64,000 bases of DNA, from positions 1 to 64,000 of the forward strand of contig DASZTW010000008.1 of the NCBI GenBank assembly GCA_035547835.1, in the 5' to 3' direction. Position numbers and translations under genes: made by a program. Below the pieces are notes generated by a model that saw only the letters and a program-made list of their open reading frames with translations, searched no databases and was not told the origin of the DNA. Shown in pieces: positions 5,353-63,232 of the stretch (position 1 is the stretch's first letter; every line of letters begins with the position of its first letter). This stretch comes from Acidimicrobiales bacterium (GTDB taxonomy: Bacteria > Actinomycetota > Acidimicrobiia > Acidimicrobiales > Iamiaceae).

Positions 5353-7182
5353 ATGCGAGTTCTCGGCAATGGCAAGGGTGTTCGGAAGGAGGGTGGCGCA
5401 CCGGTCGTGGCGGTTGTCCTGGCCATGGTCGGTGCGGCAGGTCTCTGGGCGCGGGAGAGGTTCCGCCCCGGTCGTCGGCGAGCGTTGCGCGTGGCGGGCG
5501 CGGCCGCGATGGCTGTTCTGGTCGGCGGAGTGGCGACGGCTACGCCCTCGTTCGCCGTGGCGTCGGCACCGCGTGCGGTCGCGCCGGGCGCGGCGGCCAG
5601 CGCGGTGGAGTACCCGATCGAGCTCGCAACCGGCGCGGCATACCACTCGTGTGTGCTGATGTCGGGCGGGTCGGTGAAGTGCTGGGGCTACAACTACTAC
5701 GGCGAGTTGGGTGACGGGACGAGAGAGGACCGGCACACGCCGGTTGCGGTGTCGGGGATCTCGGACGCGACCGCGGTCGCGGTCGGCGGGTATCGCTCGT
5801 GTGCGTTGTTGTCGGGCGGGTCGGTGAAGTGCTGGGGCTACAACGGCGCCGGCGGGTTGGGTGACGGGTCGACCAACGACAGCAACCTCCCGGTGACCGT
5901 GTCGGGGATCTCGGATGCGACCGCGGTCGCCGTTGGTTGGTACCACTCGTGTGCGTTGTTGTCGGGCGGTTCGGTGAAGTGCTGGGGGTACAACCTCGAC
6001 GGCGAGCTCGGTGACGGCACGACCGTCTCCCAGGAGGCGCCGGTCGCGGTGTCCGGGGTCACGGATGCGGTTGCGCTCACGGGCGGCGGCCTCCACTCGT
6101 GTGCGTTGCTGTCGGGCGGTTCGGTGACGTGCTGGGGGTCCAACGGCGAAGGCCAGCTGGGCGACGGCACGACCGCCGTCCGGACGACACCGGTCGCGGT
6201 GTCGGGCATCGCGGATGCGGTTGCCATGGCGAGCGGCAGCGCCCACTCGTGTGCGTTGTTGTCGGGCGGTTCGGTGAAGTGCTGGGGTCGCAACAGCTTC
6301 GGCGAGCTGGGTGACGGGTCGACCACGGCGCACCAGACCCCGGTTGCGGTGTCGGGGATCACCGACGCGACCGCGGTCACCGCCGGCGGCGACCACTCGT
6401 GTGCGTTGCTGTCGGGCGGTTCGGTGAAGTGCTGGGGCCACAACTACCTCGGTGAGCTCGGCGACGGGTCGACCACGGCGCGCCTGAAGCCGGTTGCGGT
6501 GTCGGGGATCACCGACGCGACCGCGGTCACCACCGGCCAGTACCACTCGTGTGCGCTGTTGTCGGGCGGGTCGGTGAAGTGCTGGGGCCGCAACAGCTTC
6601 GGCGAGTTGGGCGACGGGACGACCACGAACCGGTTGACGCCCGTTGCGGTGTCGGGCTTTGACGACACGACGCCCCCGACGGTCACCGCAGTGGTGTCAC
6701 CGGCTCCGAACAGCGAGGGCTGGTACTCGACCGCTCCCACGATCACGTGGGTCGCGACCGACCCGGCGCCGTCGTCGGGCACCCCGACCACGCCGTCGCC
6801 GCTCACCGCCGACACCGAAGGTGACGCGGTCGTGTACACGAGCGGCGAGTCGTGTGACCCTGCGGGCAAGTGCGCGACCGGCACGGCCACGGTCAGCTTG
6901 GACACCACCGCACCGACCATCACCGCCACGAAGACGGGCTCGGGGAACAACACGACGGTCACGTTCCGCTGTGCGGACGGCCTGTCGGGGATCTCGTCGT
7001 GCACCGCGCCGACGAGGGTGGCGCCCGGTGGCCAGGTGACCGGCACCGCGACCGACCGCGCAGGCAACACCGCCACGGTCGTTGTCGCGGGCCCCTCGAA
7101 CGATGCGGCGTGCCTGTTGGTCCCGACGCTGCCGTGGTGTGGAACGTCGCTGAGCTCGTGGCTCGGCGGCCTCGGCCTCTGA
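5353..7182 (+). CDS. Exported RCC1-repeat protein with Ig-like C-terminal part
   Basis: A 609-residue protein whose start follows an AGGAG sequence. A hydrophobic segment near residues 45-65 (ALRVAGAAAMAVLVGGVATA) looks like a signal sequence or anchor. Seven units of 50 residues follow, each with HSCALLSGGSVKCWG, an Asn/Gly turn and GELGDGT, as in RCC1/BLIP-II beta-propeller blades; seven blades would close one propeller. Two Cys per unit could form disulfides outside the cell. Residues about 435-590 resemble bacterial Ig-like modules (TPPTVTAVVSPAPNSEGWY, DTTAPTIT). A binding or surface role is likely; the ligand is unknown. Confidence 0.9.
   Translation: MRVLGNGKGVRKEGGAPVVAVVLAMVGAAGLWARERFRPGRRRALRVAGAAAMAVLVGGVATATPSFAVASAPRAVAPGAAASAVEYPIELATGAAYHSCVLMSGGSVKCWGYNYYGELGDGTREDRHTPVAVSGISDATAVAVGGYRSCALLSGGSVKCWGYNGAGGLGDGSTNDSNLPVTVSGISDATAVAVGWYHSCALLSGGSVKCWGYNLDGELGDGTTVSQEAPVAVSGVTDAVALTGGGLHSCALLSGGSVTCWGSNGEGQLGDGTTAVRTTPVAVSGIADAVAMASGSAHSCALLSGGSVKCWGRNSFGELGDGSTTAHQTPVAVSGITDATAVTAGGDHSCALLSGGSVKCWGHNYLGELGDGSTTARLKPVAVSGITDATAVTTGQYHSCALLSGGSVKCWGRNSFGELGDGTTTNRLTPVAVSGFDDTTPPTVTAVVSPAPNSEGWYSTAPTITWVATDPAPSSGTPTTPSPLTADTEGDAVVYTSGESCDPAGKCATGTATVSLDTTAPTITATKTGSGNNTTVTFRCADGLSGISSCTAPTRVAPGGQVTGTATDRAGNTATVVVAGPSNDAACLLVPTLPWCGTSLSSWLGGLGL
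5644..6693 (+). repeat. Seven tandem 150-bp coding repeats (RCC1 units)
   Basis: The sequence ACTCGTGTG recurs at exactly 150-base steps (near 5644, 5794, 5944, 6094, 6244, 6394 and 6544) with high nucleotide identity between units. Spacing without indels indicates recent tandem expansion or gene conversion under reading-frame constraint. Confidence 0.9.
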
Positions 7183-21200: not shown

Positions 21201-21369
21201 CTGGTGGGAGATCCCGGTGCTCGGCCGCTTCTTCCAACCCAGAGACGAGCGCGACGCCGCCGCGGCGGCGAAGGCCCCGGTCACCGAGTCGACCGACCCC
21301 GGCGCGCCCGTTGATCCGGCTCCGCCGTCGACCCCCGCGGAGCCGTCGACCCCGGTGGGGATCCGGTGA
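18250..21369 (+). CDS. Calcineurin-like phosphoesterase domain fused to MprF/LysX-like DUF2156 transferase
   Basis: A 1039-residue membrane protein; the GTG start follows GGCAGGAGGAG. Residues 30-340 resemble a metallophosphoesterase, but several metal ligands are replaced: DxH is D36-L-L38, GNHD is GSRD (114-117), HGH is HGS (159-161) and GHTH is GHTR (332-335); the GDxxD motif (D72, D75) remains. Membrane segments lie near 231-252, 270-290, 485-508, 518-536, 543-558, 575-595 and 634-652. Residues 668-1000 are DUF2156, the GNAT-like transferase of MprF, which adds aminoacyl groups to phosphatidylglycerol. The last 25 residues are Pro/Thr-rich and come from a minisatellite. Confidence 0.85.
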   Translation: MTENAGASGDQTGSPLVADEVTIDVPAGGRVYVVSDLLLRQAPDDAAEAASTEMARSIDAITGPAVLILNGDTFDLLGEGHLDPMAVLGAHGRLTKALAAFAEGPDRRLVVIPGSRDHCLAWHTPAVRNVQRRMTAEVALAVELSIATGQGTKAVRVEHGSRFDPAYAFDDPRNPGESPLGQHLVSDFLPILRRPGAAWLDGIEHLANADDVSAFVGSRLTYRRVLRRFGWLAVPLLVAVGLMIASVIAHAAGGHHGVGRTLRAWAAGVGLSSAVLLAVVGLVSALWWWSVRDPLSLFTLESISGDEHHPNDPPRAAGHRLVAEGHTGFITGHTRSAELADLGGGFYANAGCATVVVERRPGRFGLLDAFGAVRQTSYLVLEAGPDLRVSLHHQRQPIVSSTTTIERLCTRTCAGASPNVQPGDAGRVATWPGSPPWPDQEAPGLVRTRARRVGALVAAVVGLVDLVSAVTPPVRARLRAVDDLLPLVVSQTAAALVVLAGLALLLLARGLRRGHRTAWVAAIVLLWSSFLLHVVKGLDFEEGLVALVAGLFLLFNQRFFRVKSDEFSRQRASATILGGVGIAVAAGVAAVMLFHGHDPRPSLPHSFLAVVERLIGDTSRHLPERIDDFLSPSLLAASIGLVIAAGWIAFRPVVGQRLAAPAPEAEENARRIVGLYGADTLAYFALRDDKRWFFWGDTVVAYAVTNGVALVSPDPIGPVWEQRRAWFAFREFADEHGWPVAVMGASHDWLPIYHASGMRDMYVGDEAVADVRRFSLEGGKNKGLRQAVNRIAKYGYRMDFFDPTDVPADVEQGLRNLMAGSRRGEVERGFSMTLGRVFDPRDEGLLLAVCFGPDGSPAAFCQYVPAPGVQGYSLDLMRRSEAEHPNGLTDFVVVRTMEHLREQGMVGLGLNFATMRAVLAGERGEGVTPRIEKWFFSKMSDSMQIESLWRYNAKFDPDWVPRYACYESTEHMLASAFALAKAESWWEIPVLGRFFQPRDERDAAAAAKAPVTESTDPGAPVDPAPPSTPAEPSTPVGIR

Positions 21370-21617
21370 CCCCGCGGAGCCGTCGACCCCGGTGGGGACC
21401 CGGTGACCCCCGCGGAGCCGTCGACTGGTGGGGACCCCGTGACCCCGCGGAGCCGTCGACTGGTGGGGACCCCGTGACCCCGCGGAGCCGTCGACCGGTG
21501 GGGACCCGGTGACCCCGCGGTCCGGTCGACCCCGGTGGGGACCCGGTGACCCCGCGGAGCCGTCGACCGGTGGGGACCCGGTGACCCCGCGGTCCGGTCG
21601 ACCCCGGTGGGCCCGGT
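21330..21617 (+). repeat. Minisatellite, about eight units of 35-37 bp
   Basis: Units built on GTGACCCCGCGGAGCCGTCG begin at 21366, 21403, 21439, 21474, 21509, 21546 and 21581, with a partial unit before 21366. The array starts inside the 3' end of the MprF-like gene, and that gene's stop is the TGA of a unit. Units vary slightly (AGCCGTCG versus TCCGGTCG), implying an older array with interspersed variants. There are no unique spacers, so it is not a CRISPR. Confidence 0.9.
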
Positions 21618-21659
21618 GTGCGAGCCGGGGGGGGGCCGGCGGGGAGCTGACCCCGCCGA

Positions 21660-22420: not shown

Positions 22421-22465
22421 GCTGTGAGCACTTGGCCACCTGGGAGGTGGCTACGTGCTCACAGC
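22421..22465. repeat. Dispersed palindrome family 1, copy a
   Basis: A 45-bp near-perfect palindrome starting GCTGTGAGCACTTGGCCACC and ending GTGCTCACAGC. The 21-base arms differ at two positions around a 3-base loop. It lies 27 bases upstream of the hydrolase start. Further copies are at 22505, 34396 and 48274. Confidence 0.9.
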
Positions 22466-22504: not shown

Positions 22505-22549
22505 GCTGTGAGCAGTTGGCCACCTGGGAGGTGGCTACGTGCTCACAGC
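22505..22549. repeat. Dispersed palindrome family 1, copy b
   Basis: A second 45-bp copy 84 bases after copy a, differing by an AGCAG left arm. The stop codon of the PaaX-like gene (22543-22545) lies inside its right arm, so the repeat forms the gene's end. The run GGGGGTTCGCG is repeated between and after the two copies. Confidence 0.9.
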
Positions 22550-28295: not shown

Positions 28296-28467
28296 CACGA
28301 CGGCGCCGCCGGGTCGGAACGCGCCCCGCCCCGGACGTGGCCGGTTCAGGACGCGCCCGGCGCCGGACGTGGCGGTTCAGGACGTGGGCGGCGCCGCCGG
28401 GCCGGTTCCGGACGTGGGCGGCTCCGGACGTGGCCGGCTCCGGACGCGCCCGGCTCCGGACGTGGCT
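28296..28467. repeat. Degenerate GGACGTGGCCGG-type repeat
   Basis: The convergent spacer holds about ten loosely spaced copies of a 10-14 base motif (CCGGACGTGGCCGG, CAGGACGTGGGCGG and variants). It reaches the 3' end of the SufR-like gene. No gene and no canonical terminator. Confidence 0.6.
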
Positions 28468-29187
28468 TCAGGACGTGGCCGGTTCGGGCGACGCTTCCAA
28501 CTCGACCGGTTTCGGCGGTGCCATGTGGCCGTGCAGCTGGCAGTGGCCCCGCATCGGGTCGTGGGGTACCAACTCGTCGACTTGGAGACCGCCGACTTCG
28601 TCGGCCACCCCGTAGGCCATCCCGAGGTGGAGGTTGCACACCGTGTCGGGATCGGCGGCCGCGCTCGACGCGAAGGGACAGGCCTGCAGCTCGACCTCGA
28701 ACCGTTCGCCTCGATGGCGGATCTGCGGTTCGAAGCCCTGCCGGGCCATCTCTTCAACGAGGTCGTCGACCGCGGTGGCCGCCGTCGACGGCGGCGCGCC
28801 GAGCCGGCGCGGTCGGACTGCCCGTCGGCCGACCTCGATGGGGGAGTCGCCGCTGCGGATGATCTCGGTGAGCAACAGCGACAGGCGTTCATAGGGTCCA
28901 CCCGCGCCCCATCGGGCGTCGGCGGCGGGGCCCACCGAGTAGCGCAGCCGGGGGCGCCCCCGCCCGGTCGATGGCGCTTTGCCTTCGACGACCAGGTCGG
29001 CTTCGACCAGCTTGGCCAAGTGCTGGCGGATCGCGTTGTGGTGGACCTCGAGATGCTCGGTGAGCTCCGCGATGTCGACCGGCCGATCGGTGTCACGGAG
29101 GTAGCAGAAGATCGCGTAGCGCGTGGGGTCGCCGAGCGCCTTGGCCTGGCGTTGCAGCGCGGCCGCGCCGGCCGCCGGTGCGGTCAC
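28468..29187 (-). CDS. SufR-like iron-sulfur transcriptional regulator
   Basis: A 239-residue protein from the GTG at 29187, which overlaps the globin stop by four bases (GTGA). The N-terminal winged helix (RQAKALGDPTRYAIFCYLRDTD...HHNAIRQHLAKLVEADLVVE) is followed by a C-terminal region with Cys170 (ACPF), Cys184 (VCNLH) and Cys216 (GHCQLH). SufR family members use such Cys to bind an Fe-S cluster and repress suf genes when clusters are plentiful. Its transcription unit is divergent from sufBCDT, and both promoters share a dyad. The last residues fall in a simple-repeat zone. Confidence 0.85.
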   Translation of the reverse strand: MTAPAAGAAALQRQAKALGDPTRYAIFCYLRDTDRPVDIAELTEHLEVHHNAIRQHLAKLVEADLVVEGKAPSTGRGRPRLRYSVGPAADARWGAGGPYERLSLLLTEIIRSGDSPIEVGRRAVRPRRLGAPPSTAATAVDDLVEEMARQGFEPQIRHRGERFEVELQACPFASSAAADPDTVCNLHLGMAYGVADEVGGLQVDELVPHDPMRGHCQLHGHMAPPKPVELEASPEPATS

Positions 29188-29684
29188 CGCCCTACCGCCC
29201 TGGTCGGTGCCGACACCGGCATGCCGTTCGCTGGTCCGCCGCCGGCCGAGGCGCCGTACTCGATCGACTCCGGGATCGCGACCGGCGCGTCGAGGAACTG
29301 GTTGCTGTGCACCCTCGCAACATTGCACGCCAGCGCGACAGCGCGCTCGGCGTTGGGTCCGGACCACCCGCCGCGCACGGTCTGTTCGAACAGCGTGAGC
29401 CACCGCAAGAAGTGCGCGTCGGTGAACGAGCGCTGCTGGTGGACTTCCTTGTGGGCGCGGAACGGGTTGCCCGCGTAGCCTTGGATCCCGAGCAGGGCTC
29501 GGCACCAGAACGCGGTCAACTTCTCGAGGTGCTCGGGCCAGTCGACTTGGGCCACGTCGTTGAACAACGGGCCCAGAATCGGGTCGAGATCGACGTCCCC
29601 GTAGAATCGAGTGACCATCTCCGCGATCTGGCCGGGGTCGTCGAGGTCTCGGCAAGGAACGGGAGGCTGTGCGTGCACCGCCAT
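29184..29684 (-). CDS. Group III truncated hemoglobin
   Basis: A 166-residue globin using the ATG at 29684; a GTG at 29678 fits a leaderless start better. The diagnostic region is FWCRALLGIQGYAGNPFRAHKEV followed by TDAHFLRWLTLFEQTVRGGWSGPNAERAV, carrying the proximal His and conserved Trp. These heme proteins bind O2 or NO and are linked to nitrosative or oxidative stress. Coupling to a SufR-like gene and divergence from suf suggest protection or sensing for Fe-S clusters. The C-terminal tail (about 25 residues) is Gly/Ala/Pro-rich. Confidence 0.85.
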   Translation of the reverse strand: MAVHAQPPVPCRDLDDPGQIAEMVTRFYGDVDLDPILGPLFNDVAQVDWPEHLEKLTAFWCRALLGIQGYAGNPFRAHKEVHQQRSFTDAHFLRWLTLFEQTVRGGWSGPNAERAVALACNVARVHSNQFLDAPVAIPESIEYGASAGGGPANGMPVSAPTRAVGR

Positions 29685-29685
29685 A

Positions 29686-29714
29686 TTTGTAGCGAACAGC
29701 GGAGAAATAAGCAA
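29686..29714 (-). promoter_or_regulatory. Promoter of the globin-sufR unit
   Basis: On the minus strand TTGCTT (29714-29709) and TACAAA (29691-29686) are separated by exactly 17 bases. The expected start is near 29678-29680, giving a leaderless or nearly leaderless message. The -35 box overlaps the dyad at 29712-29727. Confidence 0.6.
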
Positions 29715-29727
29715 CGTCCCGGCGTTG
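29712..29727. promoter_or_regulatory. Candidate SufR operator between divergent promoters
   Basis: CAACG-TCCCGG-CGTTG is a perfect dyad whose left arm overlaps the minus-strand -35 box and whose right arm overlaps the plus-strand -35 box. It contains CAAC...GTTG, which recalls the inverted repeat reported for cyanobacterial SufR, though the spacer differs. One bound dimer could block both promoters. Confidence 0.6.
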
Positions 29728-29753
29728 TAAATCTCTGTCGCGTGCTGTTAGAA
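29725..29753 (+). promoter_or_regulatory. Promoter of the suf operon
   Basis: TTGTAA (29725-29730) and TTAGAA (29748-29753) are 17 bases apart. The sufB GTG starts 8 bases after the -10 box and there is no Shine-Dalgarno, so a leaderless transcript is likely. Confidence 0.6.
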
Positions 29754-29761
29754 ATGGCGCC

Positions 29762-31200
<1,439 letters not shown>

Positions 31201-31201
<1 letters not shown>

Positions 31202-31947
31202 TGCTGCACATCGAAGGTCTCACCGCGTCGATCGCCGGCCGCAAGATCCTGCAAGGCCTCGACCTCGACATCGCCGCGGGCGAAGTCCACGCAGTGATGG
31301 GCCCCAATGGTGCCGGCAAGAGCACGCTCGCGGCGGTGCTGGCCGGGCGCGACGGTTACGACGTCAGCGGCACCGTCACGTTCGAGGGGGCCGACCTGCT
31401 GGCGCAGCTCCCCGAGGAGCGGGCCGCCGCCGGCGTCTTCCTCGCGTTCCAGTACCCGGTCGAGATCCCCGGCGTGGGCAACACGTACTTCTTGCGCACC
31501 GCCGTGAACGCGGTGCGCGAAGCCCGCGGCCAGGAGACGTATGACGCCCGCGGGTTCCTGAAGGCCGTGCGCGAGCAGATGGCTGCGCTCGGCATCGGCG
31601 ACGAGTTCCTGCGGCGGTCGGTCAACGCCGGCTTCTCCGGCGGGGAGAAGAAGCGCAACGAGGTCCTCCAGATGGCGCTCATGGAGCCGAAGTTCGCCAT
31701 CTGCGACGAGACCGACTCCGGCCTCGACATCGACTCGCTGCGCGTGGTGGCCGAAGGGATCCAACGGCTGCGGACGCCCGAACGGTCCATGCTCGTCATC
31801 ACCCACTACCCGCGCCTGCTCGAGTACGTCGTGCCCGACCACGTGCACGTCCTCGATCAGGGCCGCATCGTGCGCAGCGGCGGTCCGGAGCTCGCTCACG
31901 AGTTGGAGGCGCACGGGTACGGCGACCGCGTCCCGGTCGGTCCATGA
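31201..31947 (+). CDS. sufC: Fe-S assembly ATPase SufC
   Basis: A 248-residue ABC-type ATPase. Walker A GPNGAGKST, Q-loop FLAFQYPVEIPGV, signature FSGGEKKRNEVLQ and Walker B FAICDETDSGLDIDSL (with the Suf-specific ETDSGLD) are present, with His in ITHYPRLL. SufC powers conformational change in the SufBC2D scaffold. It overlaps sufB by one base and sufD by four (ATGA). Confidence 0.97.
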
Positions 31948-33311
31948 CCAAGCCGGCGCCGGCTGCGACCACGGGTTCGGCCGACCCGGCACCCGACGCG
32001 CCCGCCGGCACGTTGGCCGCCGCTGGTTGGCGCCAACAGGCCCGTGCAGAAGTGCGCGCCTGGTTGGGCGTCAACTCGATGCCCACCCGCCACGACGAAG
32101 CGTGGAAGTACACGCCGTTGAAGCGGCTCGAGGAGCACGACGCCGAGCAGCAGGCCGACCCGGTCGCAGCGCCCGACCGCGGCGTGATCGACGAGCTGGC
32201 CGGCTCGCACGGCAGCGTCCGGCTGGTGTTCGTCAACGGGCGCTTTTCCGCCGCCGCCTCCGACGTCGCAGCCGAACCATCGTCGGGTGTGGTGGTCGGC
32301 GCCTTGTCCACGCTGGCTGCCGACGGGTCACCGGCCGCGCGCTCGGTCGAACAGCAGGTGGCGGCCCGCCGGTCGTCCCGCTTCGACGGCTACCAGGCCC
32401 TCAACACCCTGTACAGCCCCGACGCGGCGGTCGTGTGGCTGGCCGAAGGCGCCACGCTCGAGGGTCCCGTCCACATCGTCCACTTGTCGCTCCCGGGCTC
32501 GGCGCCGAGCGCCTCGCACCCCCTCACGTTCGTGTGCGCGGCACCGCGGAGCACCCTGCAGGTCGTCGAGACGTACGCCGGCCTGCCGGGCTTCGGGCTG
32601 GTCAACGCCCGCACGTCGCTCGCGGTGTCGTCGGGTGCGAACGTCACGTACGAGCGGGTGCAGTCGGAGGCTGCCGACACCGTCCACGTCGGGCACACCG
32701 GCGCCGTGCTCGCACGCGACGCCAACTTGCGCACGAGCTCCCTGCAGCTCGGTGGCGACCTCGCCCGCGCCGCGCTCGACGTGGTGCTCGCCGGCGAGGG
32801 TGCCCACGCCGATCTCTCCGGGCTGTACCTGCCCGACGGCGTGCAGCACCTCGACAACGTGGTCACGGTCGACCACGCCGCGTCGCGCACCACCAGCCGC
32901 CAGCTGTACAAGGGCGTGATCGACGACGCCGGCCACGGCTGCTTCACGGGCCACGTGATCGTGCAGGCCGGCACCGCCGCAGTCGACGCCGCGCAGACCA
33001 ACCGCAGCTTGCTGCTCAGCCGCACCGCCCAGACCGACACGCGCCCCTGGCTCGAGATCCTCGCCGACGACGTTCGCTGCTCCCACGGGGCGACCGTCGG
33101 CCGGCTCGACGAAGAGTCGTTGTTCTACCTGCGCGCTCGCGGCATCCCCGAGGCCACCGCCCGCGCCGTCCTGGTCGGCGCCTTCGCCGGCGAGGTGCTC
33201 GACACCATCGCCGTCGAGTCGCTGCGGAACCAGCTCGCGCACGAGATCGCCGCCGCAGGTCACATCCCGCTCGAGGTCCACGGCGAGGTCGACCGCGAGG
33301 TCGGCGAGTGA
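31944..33311 (+). CDS. sufD: Fe-S assembly protein SufD
   Basis: A 455-residue protein. The N-terminus has the RHDEAWKYTPLKRLEEHD segment. The beta-helix core and C-terminus show GHVIVQAGTAAVDAAQTNRSLLLS, DVRCSHGATVGRLDEESLFYLRARGIPEATARAVLVGAFAGEV, the SufB/SufD pattern with the conserved His. It pairs with SufB in the SufBC2D scaffold. The ATG overlaps the end of sufC by four bases and its stop overlaps the next GTG. Confidence 0.95.
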   Translation: MTKPAPAATTGSADPAPDAPAGTLAAAGWRQQARAEVRAWLGVNSMPTRHDEAWKYTPLKRLEEHDAEQQADPVAAPDRGVIDELAGSHGSVRLVFVNGRFSAAASDVAAEPSSGVVVGALSTLAADGSPAARSVEQQVAARRSSRFDGYQALNTLYSPDAAVVWLAEGATLEGPVHIVHLSLPGSAPSASHPLTFVCAAPRSTLQVVETYAGLPGFGLVNARTSLAVSSGANVTYERVQSEAADTVHVGHTGAVLARDANLRTSSLQLGGDLARAALDVVLAGEGAHADLSGLYLPDGVQHLDNVVTVDHAASRTTSRQLYKGVIDDAGHGCFTGHVIVQAGTAAVDAAQTNRSLLLSRTAQTDTRPWLEILADDVRCSHGATVGRLDEESLFYLRARGIPEATARAVLVGAFAGEVLDTIAVESLRNQLAHEIAAAGHIPLEVHGEVDREVGE

Positions 33312-33889
33312 GCCCCGCCGGCCACGACCTGCCCGGCCCGTCCGACGACGGCTGGACCGAGGTCATCCGCCACTGCGTCGCGGTCACGGTCCCCGACGGC
33401 GACCGCATCGTGTTGGTGCCCGGCACCAAAGTCGAGGTGCTCCAACGTATGGGCGACAGCTGCACGGTCCGCAACGAGTACGGCCACCTGCTGCGCGTGG
33501 GCGGAGCGGACTTCGATGCGATCGGGCTCGAAGCCTCCGAGCGGGCGGTGATGATCTCCGGCGCGTCGTCCGGGCCGTTCGAGATGGACGCCGTCACCGC
33601 CGCGCTGCACACCGTGTACGACCCCGAGATCCCCGTGAGCATCGTGGACCTCGGTCTGATCTACCGGTGCGACGAGATCGTCGACGGCGACGGCAAGCGC
33701 CGCATCGAGATCGACATGACCATGACCTCGCCCGGCTGCGGCATGGGCGACATCTTGTGCGACGACGCGGCGCGGGTGGTGCGGGCCGTCCCCGGCGTCG
33801 ACGACGTGGTCATCAACCTCGTCTTCGATCCGCCCTGGGGCCTCGACCGCATGACCGAAGAGGTCCGCCTCGAGCTCGGCCTGCTGTAG
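33308..33889 (+). CDS. sufT: SufT-like Fe-S maturation protein (DUF59/MIP18)
   Basis: A 193-residue protein. An N-terminal SufT-specific beta part (VIRHCVAVTVPDGDRIVLVPGTKVEVLQRMGDSCTVRN) precedes a DUF59 domain: ALHTVYDPEIPVSIVDLGLIY, then MTMTSPGCGMGDILCDDAARVV with the conserved Cys, and LVFDPPWGLDRMTEEVRLELGL. DUF59 proteins help transfer Fe-S clusters to targets. The GTG overlaps the sufD stop (GTGA). No sufS or sufU follows. Confidence 0.93.
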   Translation: MSPAGHDLPGPSDDGWTEVIRHCVAVTVPDGDRIVLVPGTKVEVLQRMGDSCTVRNEYGHLLRVGGADFDAIGLEASERAVMISGASSGPFEMDAVTAALHTVYDPEIPVSIVDLGLIYRCDEIVDGDGKRRIEIDMTMTSPGCGMGDILCDDAARVVRAVPGVDDVVINLVFDPPWGLDRMTEEVRLELGLL

Positions 33890-34395: not shown

Positions 34396-34440
34396 GCTGT
34401 GAGCACTTGGCCACCTCCCAGGTGGCCAAGTGCTCACAGC
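34396..34440. repeat. Dispersed palindrome family 1, copy c (perfect)
   Basis: A 45-bp palindrome with perfect 21-base arms around the loop CCC. It sits between the convergent ends of the membrane protein gene and larC, so it could act as a bidirectional terminator. Shares GCTGTGAGCACTTGGCCACC with copies near 22.4 and 48.3 kb. Confidence 0.95.
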
Positions 34441-48273: not shown

Positions 48274-48318
48274 GCTGTGAGCACTTGGCCACCTGGTGGG
48301 TGGCTGAGCGCTCACAGC
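48274..48318. repeat. Dispersed palindrome family 1, copy d
   Basis: A 45-bp copy between P450 and thyA: left arm GCTGTGAGCACTTGGCCACC, right arm GGGTGGCTGAGCGCTCACAGC with a few mismatches. It begins 10 bases after the P450 stop and could terminate that operon. Confidence 0.9.
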
Positions 48319-62904: not shown

Positions 62905-63232
62905 CGGCTGCCTCCCGGTCCGGCACCATACCATGACGCCCGTGTCAGGTTTCGGGCCCAGCGGAGCCCCCGATCCGCTGCTGTGAGCAGTTGACCACCG
63001 TGGAAGTGGCTGAGGACCTGCGCGGGTAGGTCGCGTGGCGGATCGTCGAGTCGGGGGCGTCCGCGGCCAGGACGCAGGACGACGGCCCCCACCAGCGAAG
63101 CCGAGGACGAGGACGCCGCCGCGGGCGTCATCCGGCCGGCGAGACGCTGCGCACGCCTATCCGCGCAGGTCCTCAGTGCTCGCAGCAGGTCGGGTGGGTG
63201 GACGGGCGGGACGTGGGTGGCGTCCGTGGGCG
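62905..63232. other. Intergenic region with large composite inverted repeat
   Basis: About 330 bases between two minus-strand genes. It is mostly filled by the 207-bp element at 62980-63186. TATGGT on the minus strand near 62927-62932 may be the -10 box of the SDR gene. Confidence 0.45.
62980..63186. repeat. 207-bp composite element with 20-bp inverted arms and family-1 ends
   Basis: CTGAGGACCTGCGCGGGTAG (63010-63029) pairs with the sequence at 63157-63176 at 19 of 20 positions. Outside them are GCTGTGAGCAG on the left and the reverse complement of GCTGCGAGCAC on the right, the ends of palindrome family 1. The 127-base interior is GC-rich with no clear frame. It looks like a family-1 palindrome with an expanded or inserted centre. 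Confidence 0.7.

Follow-up and report, generated by a model that had tools for sequence, protein, structure and literature searches.

The window, meaning the whole 64-kb stretch of DNA that was analysed, contains a suf locus composed of two divergent units. The globin-sufR unit lies on the minus strand, with the regulator as its second gene, after the globin, and sufBCDT lies on the plus strand. The genes are as follows.

28468–29187, minus strand: SufR-like ArsR-type regulator, its start overlapping the globin stop (GTGA)
29184–29678, minus strand: group III truncated globin (Pfam Bac_globin)
29762–31201, plus strand: sufB (NF008773/TIGR01980, above cut-off)
31201–31947, plus strand: sufC (TIGR01978, above cut-off)
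31944–33311, plus strand: sufD (TIGR01981, above cut-off)
33308–33889, plus strand: sufT (DUF59; TIGR03406 at 193.9 bits, just below the cut-off of 202.6; PF01883)

The globin encoded at 29184–29678 resembles solved group III globins, the closest being 2ig3 (E 2.6e-10, residues 19–104). Its start is GTG 29678 if the transcript is leaderless, and an in-frame ATG is also present at 29684. Genes for sufS, sufE, and sufU are absent alongside the suf operon (29762–33889). The window's type of SufB is patchily distributed in the order, being found in 15 of 148 genomes. A second SufB (approximately 42% identity) is present in many members of the family, as an additional or sole copy, and is absent from the window's genome.

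Several repeats are found in the window. A tandem array at 5641–6656 (150-bp unit, 6.8 copies) has a length that is a multiple of three and looks like a coding repeat. Another, at 21333–21618, comprises 7.5 copies of a 35-bp unit, and a GC-rich array with a 32-bp unit (28308–28482) covers the last part of sufR and continues into the sequence that follows. The dispersed inverted repeat CTGTGAGCACTTGGCCACC...GGTGGCCAAGTGCTCACAG occurs at 22422–22464, 22506–22548, 34397–34439, 48275–48293, and 62981–62999. Its arms are present in about 104 copies (at most one mismatch) in the 3.7-Mb genome, against 0 in the control, and the copies are often in tandem with a spacing of about 73 bp, as in a REP-like family.

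Putative promoter elements for both units can be read between the divergent genes.

29686–29691, minus strand: putative −10 (TACAAA) of globin-sufR, with a 17-bp spacer from the −35
29709–29714, minus strand: putative −35 (TTGCTT) of globin-sufR
29725–29730, plus strand: putative −35 (TTGTAA) of sufB
29748–29754, plus strand: putative −10 of sufB, either TTAGAA or TAGAAA

Both putative promoters match the consensus weakly, and a scan of the region returned none at 9/12 consensus. The letters agree with the promoters as read by the initial annotation, including the 17-bp spacers and the starts 6–8 bases after the −10. For the sufB −10, TTAGAA (29748–29753) preserves the 17-bp spacer, and TAGAAA (29749–29754), with an 18-bp spacer, is the better hexamer. 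The GTG at 29762 has no alternative sufB start upstream, and an in-frame stop is present at 29708. Leaderless starts are plausible because no Shine-Dalgarno sequence is visible before sufB.

The regulator has an N-terminal ArsR/DeoR-type winged helix-turn-helix (HTH) domain, with PF12840 and PF01022 both above cut-off, and its predicted model matches ArsR repressors (Z 13.1, rmsd 2.0 over 84 residues). C170, C184, and C216 are unchanged throughout two sets of 21 and 30 orthologues, and these three cysteines are candidate Fe-S cluster ligands. Their spacing is C-X13-C-X31-C, not C-X12-C-X13-C-X14-C. The TIGR02702 (SufR_cyano) model scores 24.9 bits against a cut-off of 178.8, and aligns to the HTH part only. 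The protein is therefore best named SufR-like; it is not a member of cyanobacterial SufR. Orthologues of sufR lie near suf in some relatives and elsewhere in others, and in the window the gene adjoins the suf operon. In its predicted model, the C-terminal half (residues 95–225) matches TRAPP/Bet3 proteins (Z approximately 11) and, weakly, H-NOX folds, a likeness that would be one of shared fold and shows no function.

The initial annotation placed the operator of this regulator at a dyad between the two promoters.

29712–29727, no strand: CAACG-N6-CGTTG dyad, judged to be a chance occurrence

A single SufR dimer on this dyad was proposed to block both −35 boxes. The dyad is indeed present (CAACG at 29712–29716, TCCCGG as the six central bases, and CGTTG at 29723–29727), it is central, and it overlaps both putative −35 boxes as claimed. 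It also recalls CAAC-N6-GTTG, the SufR site in cyanobacteria (PMC8593673) and, according to PMC11995493, in Streptomyces avermitilis. Written in the same terms, however, the dyad in the window is CAAC-N8-GTTG, a spacing that is wrong for the known site. Dyads whose arms are 5 or longer and whose spacer is at most 12 arise in 47% of dinucleotide shuffles of the 78-bp region and in 74% of the window's 78-mers. Across the 3.7-Mb genome the exact dyad has about 13 copies, counting this one. The annotation had itself named alignment across relatives as a check, and CAACG-N6-CGTTG, CAAC-N6-GTTG, and CAAC-N8-GTTG were each found in 0 of 60 upstream regions of the relatives' sufR and sufB. Further, the recognition helix found in relatives with a different, TTCTAG box is retained in the window regulator. 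We consider a single dimer acting at this dyad very improbable; the dyad is probably accidental and has no necessary part in the regulation proposed below. Nor was the CAAC...GTTG repeat an unexpected link for an actinomycete, as had been suggested: PMC11995493 reports that S. avermitilis SufR binds CAAC-N6-GTTG and that GAAC-N6-GTTG is kept in C. glutamicum. The dyad was also considered as a terminator and rejected; it is the sole terminator-like site listed (minus strand, 5-bp stem), and shuffles average 2.0.

A different sequence is conserved. Genomes of the order Acidimicrobiales, about 400 in all, were compared, and relatives were found by an alignment-based scan; a scan of genome contigs with the single SufR protein had returned none. 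A palindromic motif was searched for de novo in the regions upstream of sufR orthologues and window-type sufB, from the family and the order, with the window left out of the input. The motif found was the palindrome TATTTCTAG-N6-CTAGAAATA, well above shuffle level in about 40 of the 60 sufR/sufB upstream regions, with a central spacer of 6 in 83 of 84 boxes. Among named genomes (Acidimicrobiia MAGs, Aquihabitans, and Ilumatobacter), 54 of 79 sufR upstream regions carry a box of at least 13 bits, against 0 of 79 shuffles, with training and test sets of the position weight matrix (PWM) overlapping in some genomes. The recognition helix (H/N)HNA(I/V)RQHLxxL is common to the window regulator and the box-carrying relatives. 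Relatives with the same divergent arrangement of globin and sufB have one box between the two genes.

Candidate sites are present at the locus and in the rest of the genome, with scores from a PWM built from the relatives without the window.

29684–29707, no strand: candidate SufR-like operator, TATTTGTAGCGAACAGCGGAGAAA
29730–29753, no strand: weak second box, AATCTCTGTCGCGTGCTGTTAGAA, spanning the sufB core promoter
Own-genome contig C17 (L126 1041–1499): second truncated globin gene, behind the genome's best SufR-type box

The first box scores 17.8 bits (shuffle p 0.0013) and is the top site of the 64 kb, the runner-up scoring 6.9. Within the globin-sufR promoter it overlaps the −10 and the spacer, and most of it falls inside the interval first reported. 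The second scores 5.6 bits, fifth best in the window (shuffle p 0.009). In the rest of the genome, the only match with at most three mismatches is directly before the second globin on C17; at 28.2 bits it is much nearer the consensus than either window box. Pfam did not recognise this second globin. The search for genomes in which to footprint 29684–29707 turned up none above about 65% SufR identity.

The first box is imperfect, its right arm fitting an 8-bp spacer slightly better than 6. A reading of the box with an 8-bp spacer suits its arms, but was rejected on the near-uniform spacer of 6 across the boxes. The imperfection could reflect decay of both boxes at the locus, leaving suf and globin-sufR constitutive and the regulator serving mainly the C17 globin with its intact box, as the scores of the three sites and the preference of the window site for a non-canonical spacer would suggest. 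We judge this decidedly unlikely: 17.8 bits is within the relatives' range and far above all else in the 64 kb, and the site overlaps a promoter's −10 region.

The genes beside the boxes point to a regulon for nitric oxide (NO) response and Fe-S repair. They comprise sufR, hemerythrin-DUF2249, DUF2249, NnrS-like, DUF59, two globin types, cupredoxin, and sufBCDT. The name NnrS-like is provisional and stands for a membrane protein in which DUF2249, at the N-terminus, is the only domain that Pfam sees. Neither of two type-B globins was recognised by Pfam, and they were called as globins on visual inspection and on their resemblance to window-type globins. Boxes of at least 17 bits lie at most 200 bp before a listed gene in 97 of 139 cases, against 9 for random placement, the list being partly drawn from genes already seen near boxes. 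Haloarchaea induce both DUF2249 proteins and a truncated globin when denitrifying (PMC11218638). The window's own genome has no DUF2249 genes, and therefore the regulon there would be small.

A real box could be read by some other regulator, for example of the Rrf2 or Crp/FNR type, with SufR merely one of its targets. The box does stand before many genes other than sufR, and the link to SufR comes from comparing sequences. Against this, box and SufR orthologue co-occur strongly across 147 genomes, with 22 of 28 against 21 of 119 (Fisher p 1.7e-9). In addition, boxes adjoin sufR more often than any other gene (49 boxes), a count made on loci that had been retrieved by way of SufR, and no other regulator was seen repeatedly beside boxes in the course of a non-systematic inspection. 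We therefore regard another reader of the box as unlikely, and favour the SufR-like protein.

The regulator can be compared with several characterised systems. Like SufR of Synechocystis and S. avermitilis, as described in PMC8593673 and PMC11995493, it has an ArsR/DeoR-like HTH, C-terminal cysteines, a gene beside suf, and an operator with a 6-bp central spacer, and autoregulation with suf repression would be expected. It differs from them in its operator (TATTTCTAG-N6-CTAGAAATA rather than CAAC-N6-GTTG), in missing TIGR02702, in the C-X13-C-X31-C cysteines, and in a wider target set. SufR of Mycobacterium tuberculosis (Rv1460) is likewise an actinobacterial suf repressor with a leaderless sufR and three key cysteines, C203/C216/C244 (PMC6034842). 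However, there sufR heads the suf operon, whereas here it is divergent and second after the globin. In cysteine spacing the window protein (X13/X31) is nearer to ArnR of C. glutamicum (X13/X29) than to M. tuberculosis SufR (X12/X27). ArnR, compared here by cysteine positions, is a winged-HTH protein with cysteines 179/193/223, and is described in PMC12343034 as a [4Fe-4S] repressor of the flavohaemoglobin gene hmp that is released by NO. Unlike the regulator here, it controls nitrate respiration as well as hmp, and no suf link is reported there. The same paper describes NsrR regulons, in which an Fe-S repressor similarly governs NO-detoxifying globin genes such as hmp; NsrR is of the Rrf2 family, whereas the window regulator has an ArsR-type HTH.

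The box, its distribution, the genes around it, and the conservation of the recognition helix and cysteines are directly observed; we infer binding of the box by the SufR-like protein, a cluster on that protein, and NO as its signal. We consider it likely that the locus is part of a regulon of Acidimicrobiales marked by TATTTCTAG-N6-CTAGAAATA in which a SufR-like Fe-S dimer represses globin-sufR and suf until damage occurs. The dimer, its Fe-S cluster held by the three invariant cysteines, would bind 29684–29707, over the −10 of its own promoter, and more weakly 29730–29753, over the sufB promoter. In this cluster-bound form it would repress both globin-sufR and sufBCDT. Loss of the cluster to NO or other damage would cause the dimer to let go of the DNA, so that the globin, for NO removal, and SufBCDT, for cluster repair, would be made together. 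There are published precedents: suf is induced by NO in M. tuberculosis (PMC10848736), and ArnR, with its three cysteines and [4Fe-4S] cluster, loses DNA binding with NO (PMC12343034). Control of both units by the regulator, as the initial annotation proposed, thus probably holds, with the operator elsewhere than at the CAACG dyad; its signal of cluster sufficiency is modified, as the company of the box points to NO and Fe-S damage rather than to sufficiency alone. Doubt attaches mainly to two points: that SufR itself is the protein reading the box, and that the window's imperfect copies are still functional.

Most likely the regulator is of a known kind, and the conserved palindrome gives it a new operator and a wider regulon. 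In Acidimicrobiia more broadly, the SufR-like Fe-S protein may well be the master repressor of the NO-stress response, filling the role of NsrR with a fold unrelated to it, and TATTTCTAG-N6-CTAGAAATA would tie Fe-S assembly to truncated globins, hemerythrin-DUF2249, DUF2249, and NnrS-like proteins. If so, Actinobacteria do not all share CAAC-N6-GTTG as their SufR operator, and one repressor governs Fe-S assembly, globins, and DUF2249/hemerythrin proteins in a large, mostly uncultured class. The proposal would also supply a working hypothesis on the DUF2249 proteins, so far unexplained, and a scannable motif that may predict NO-response genes in organisms few can grow.
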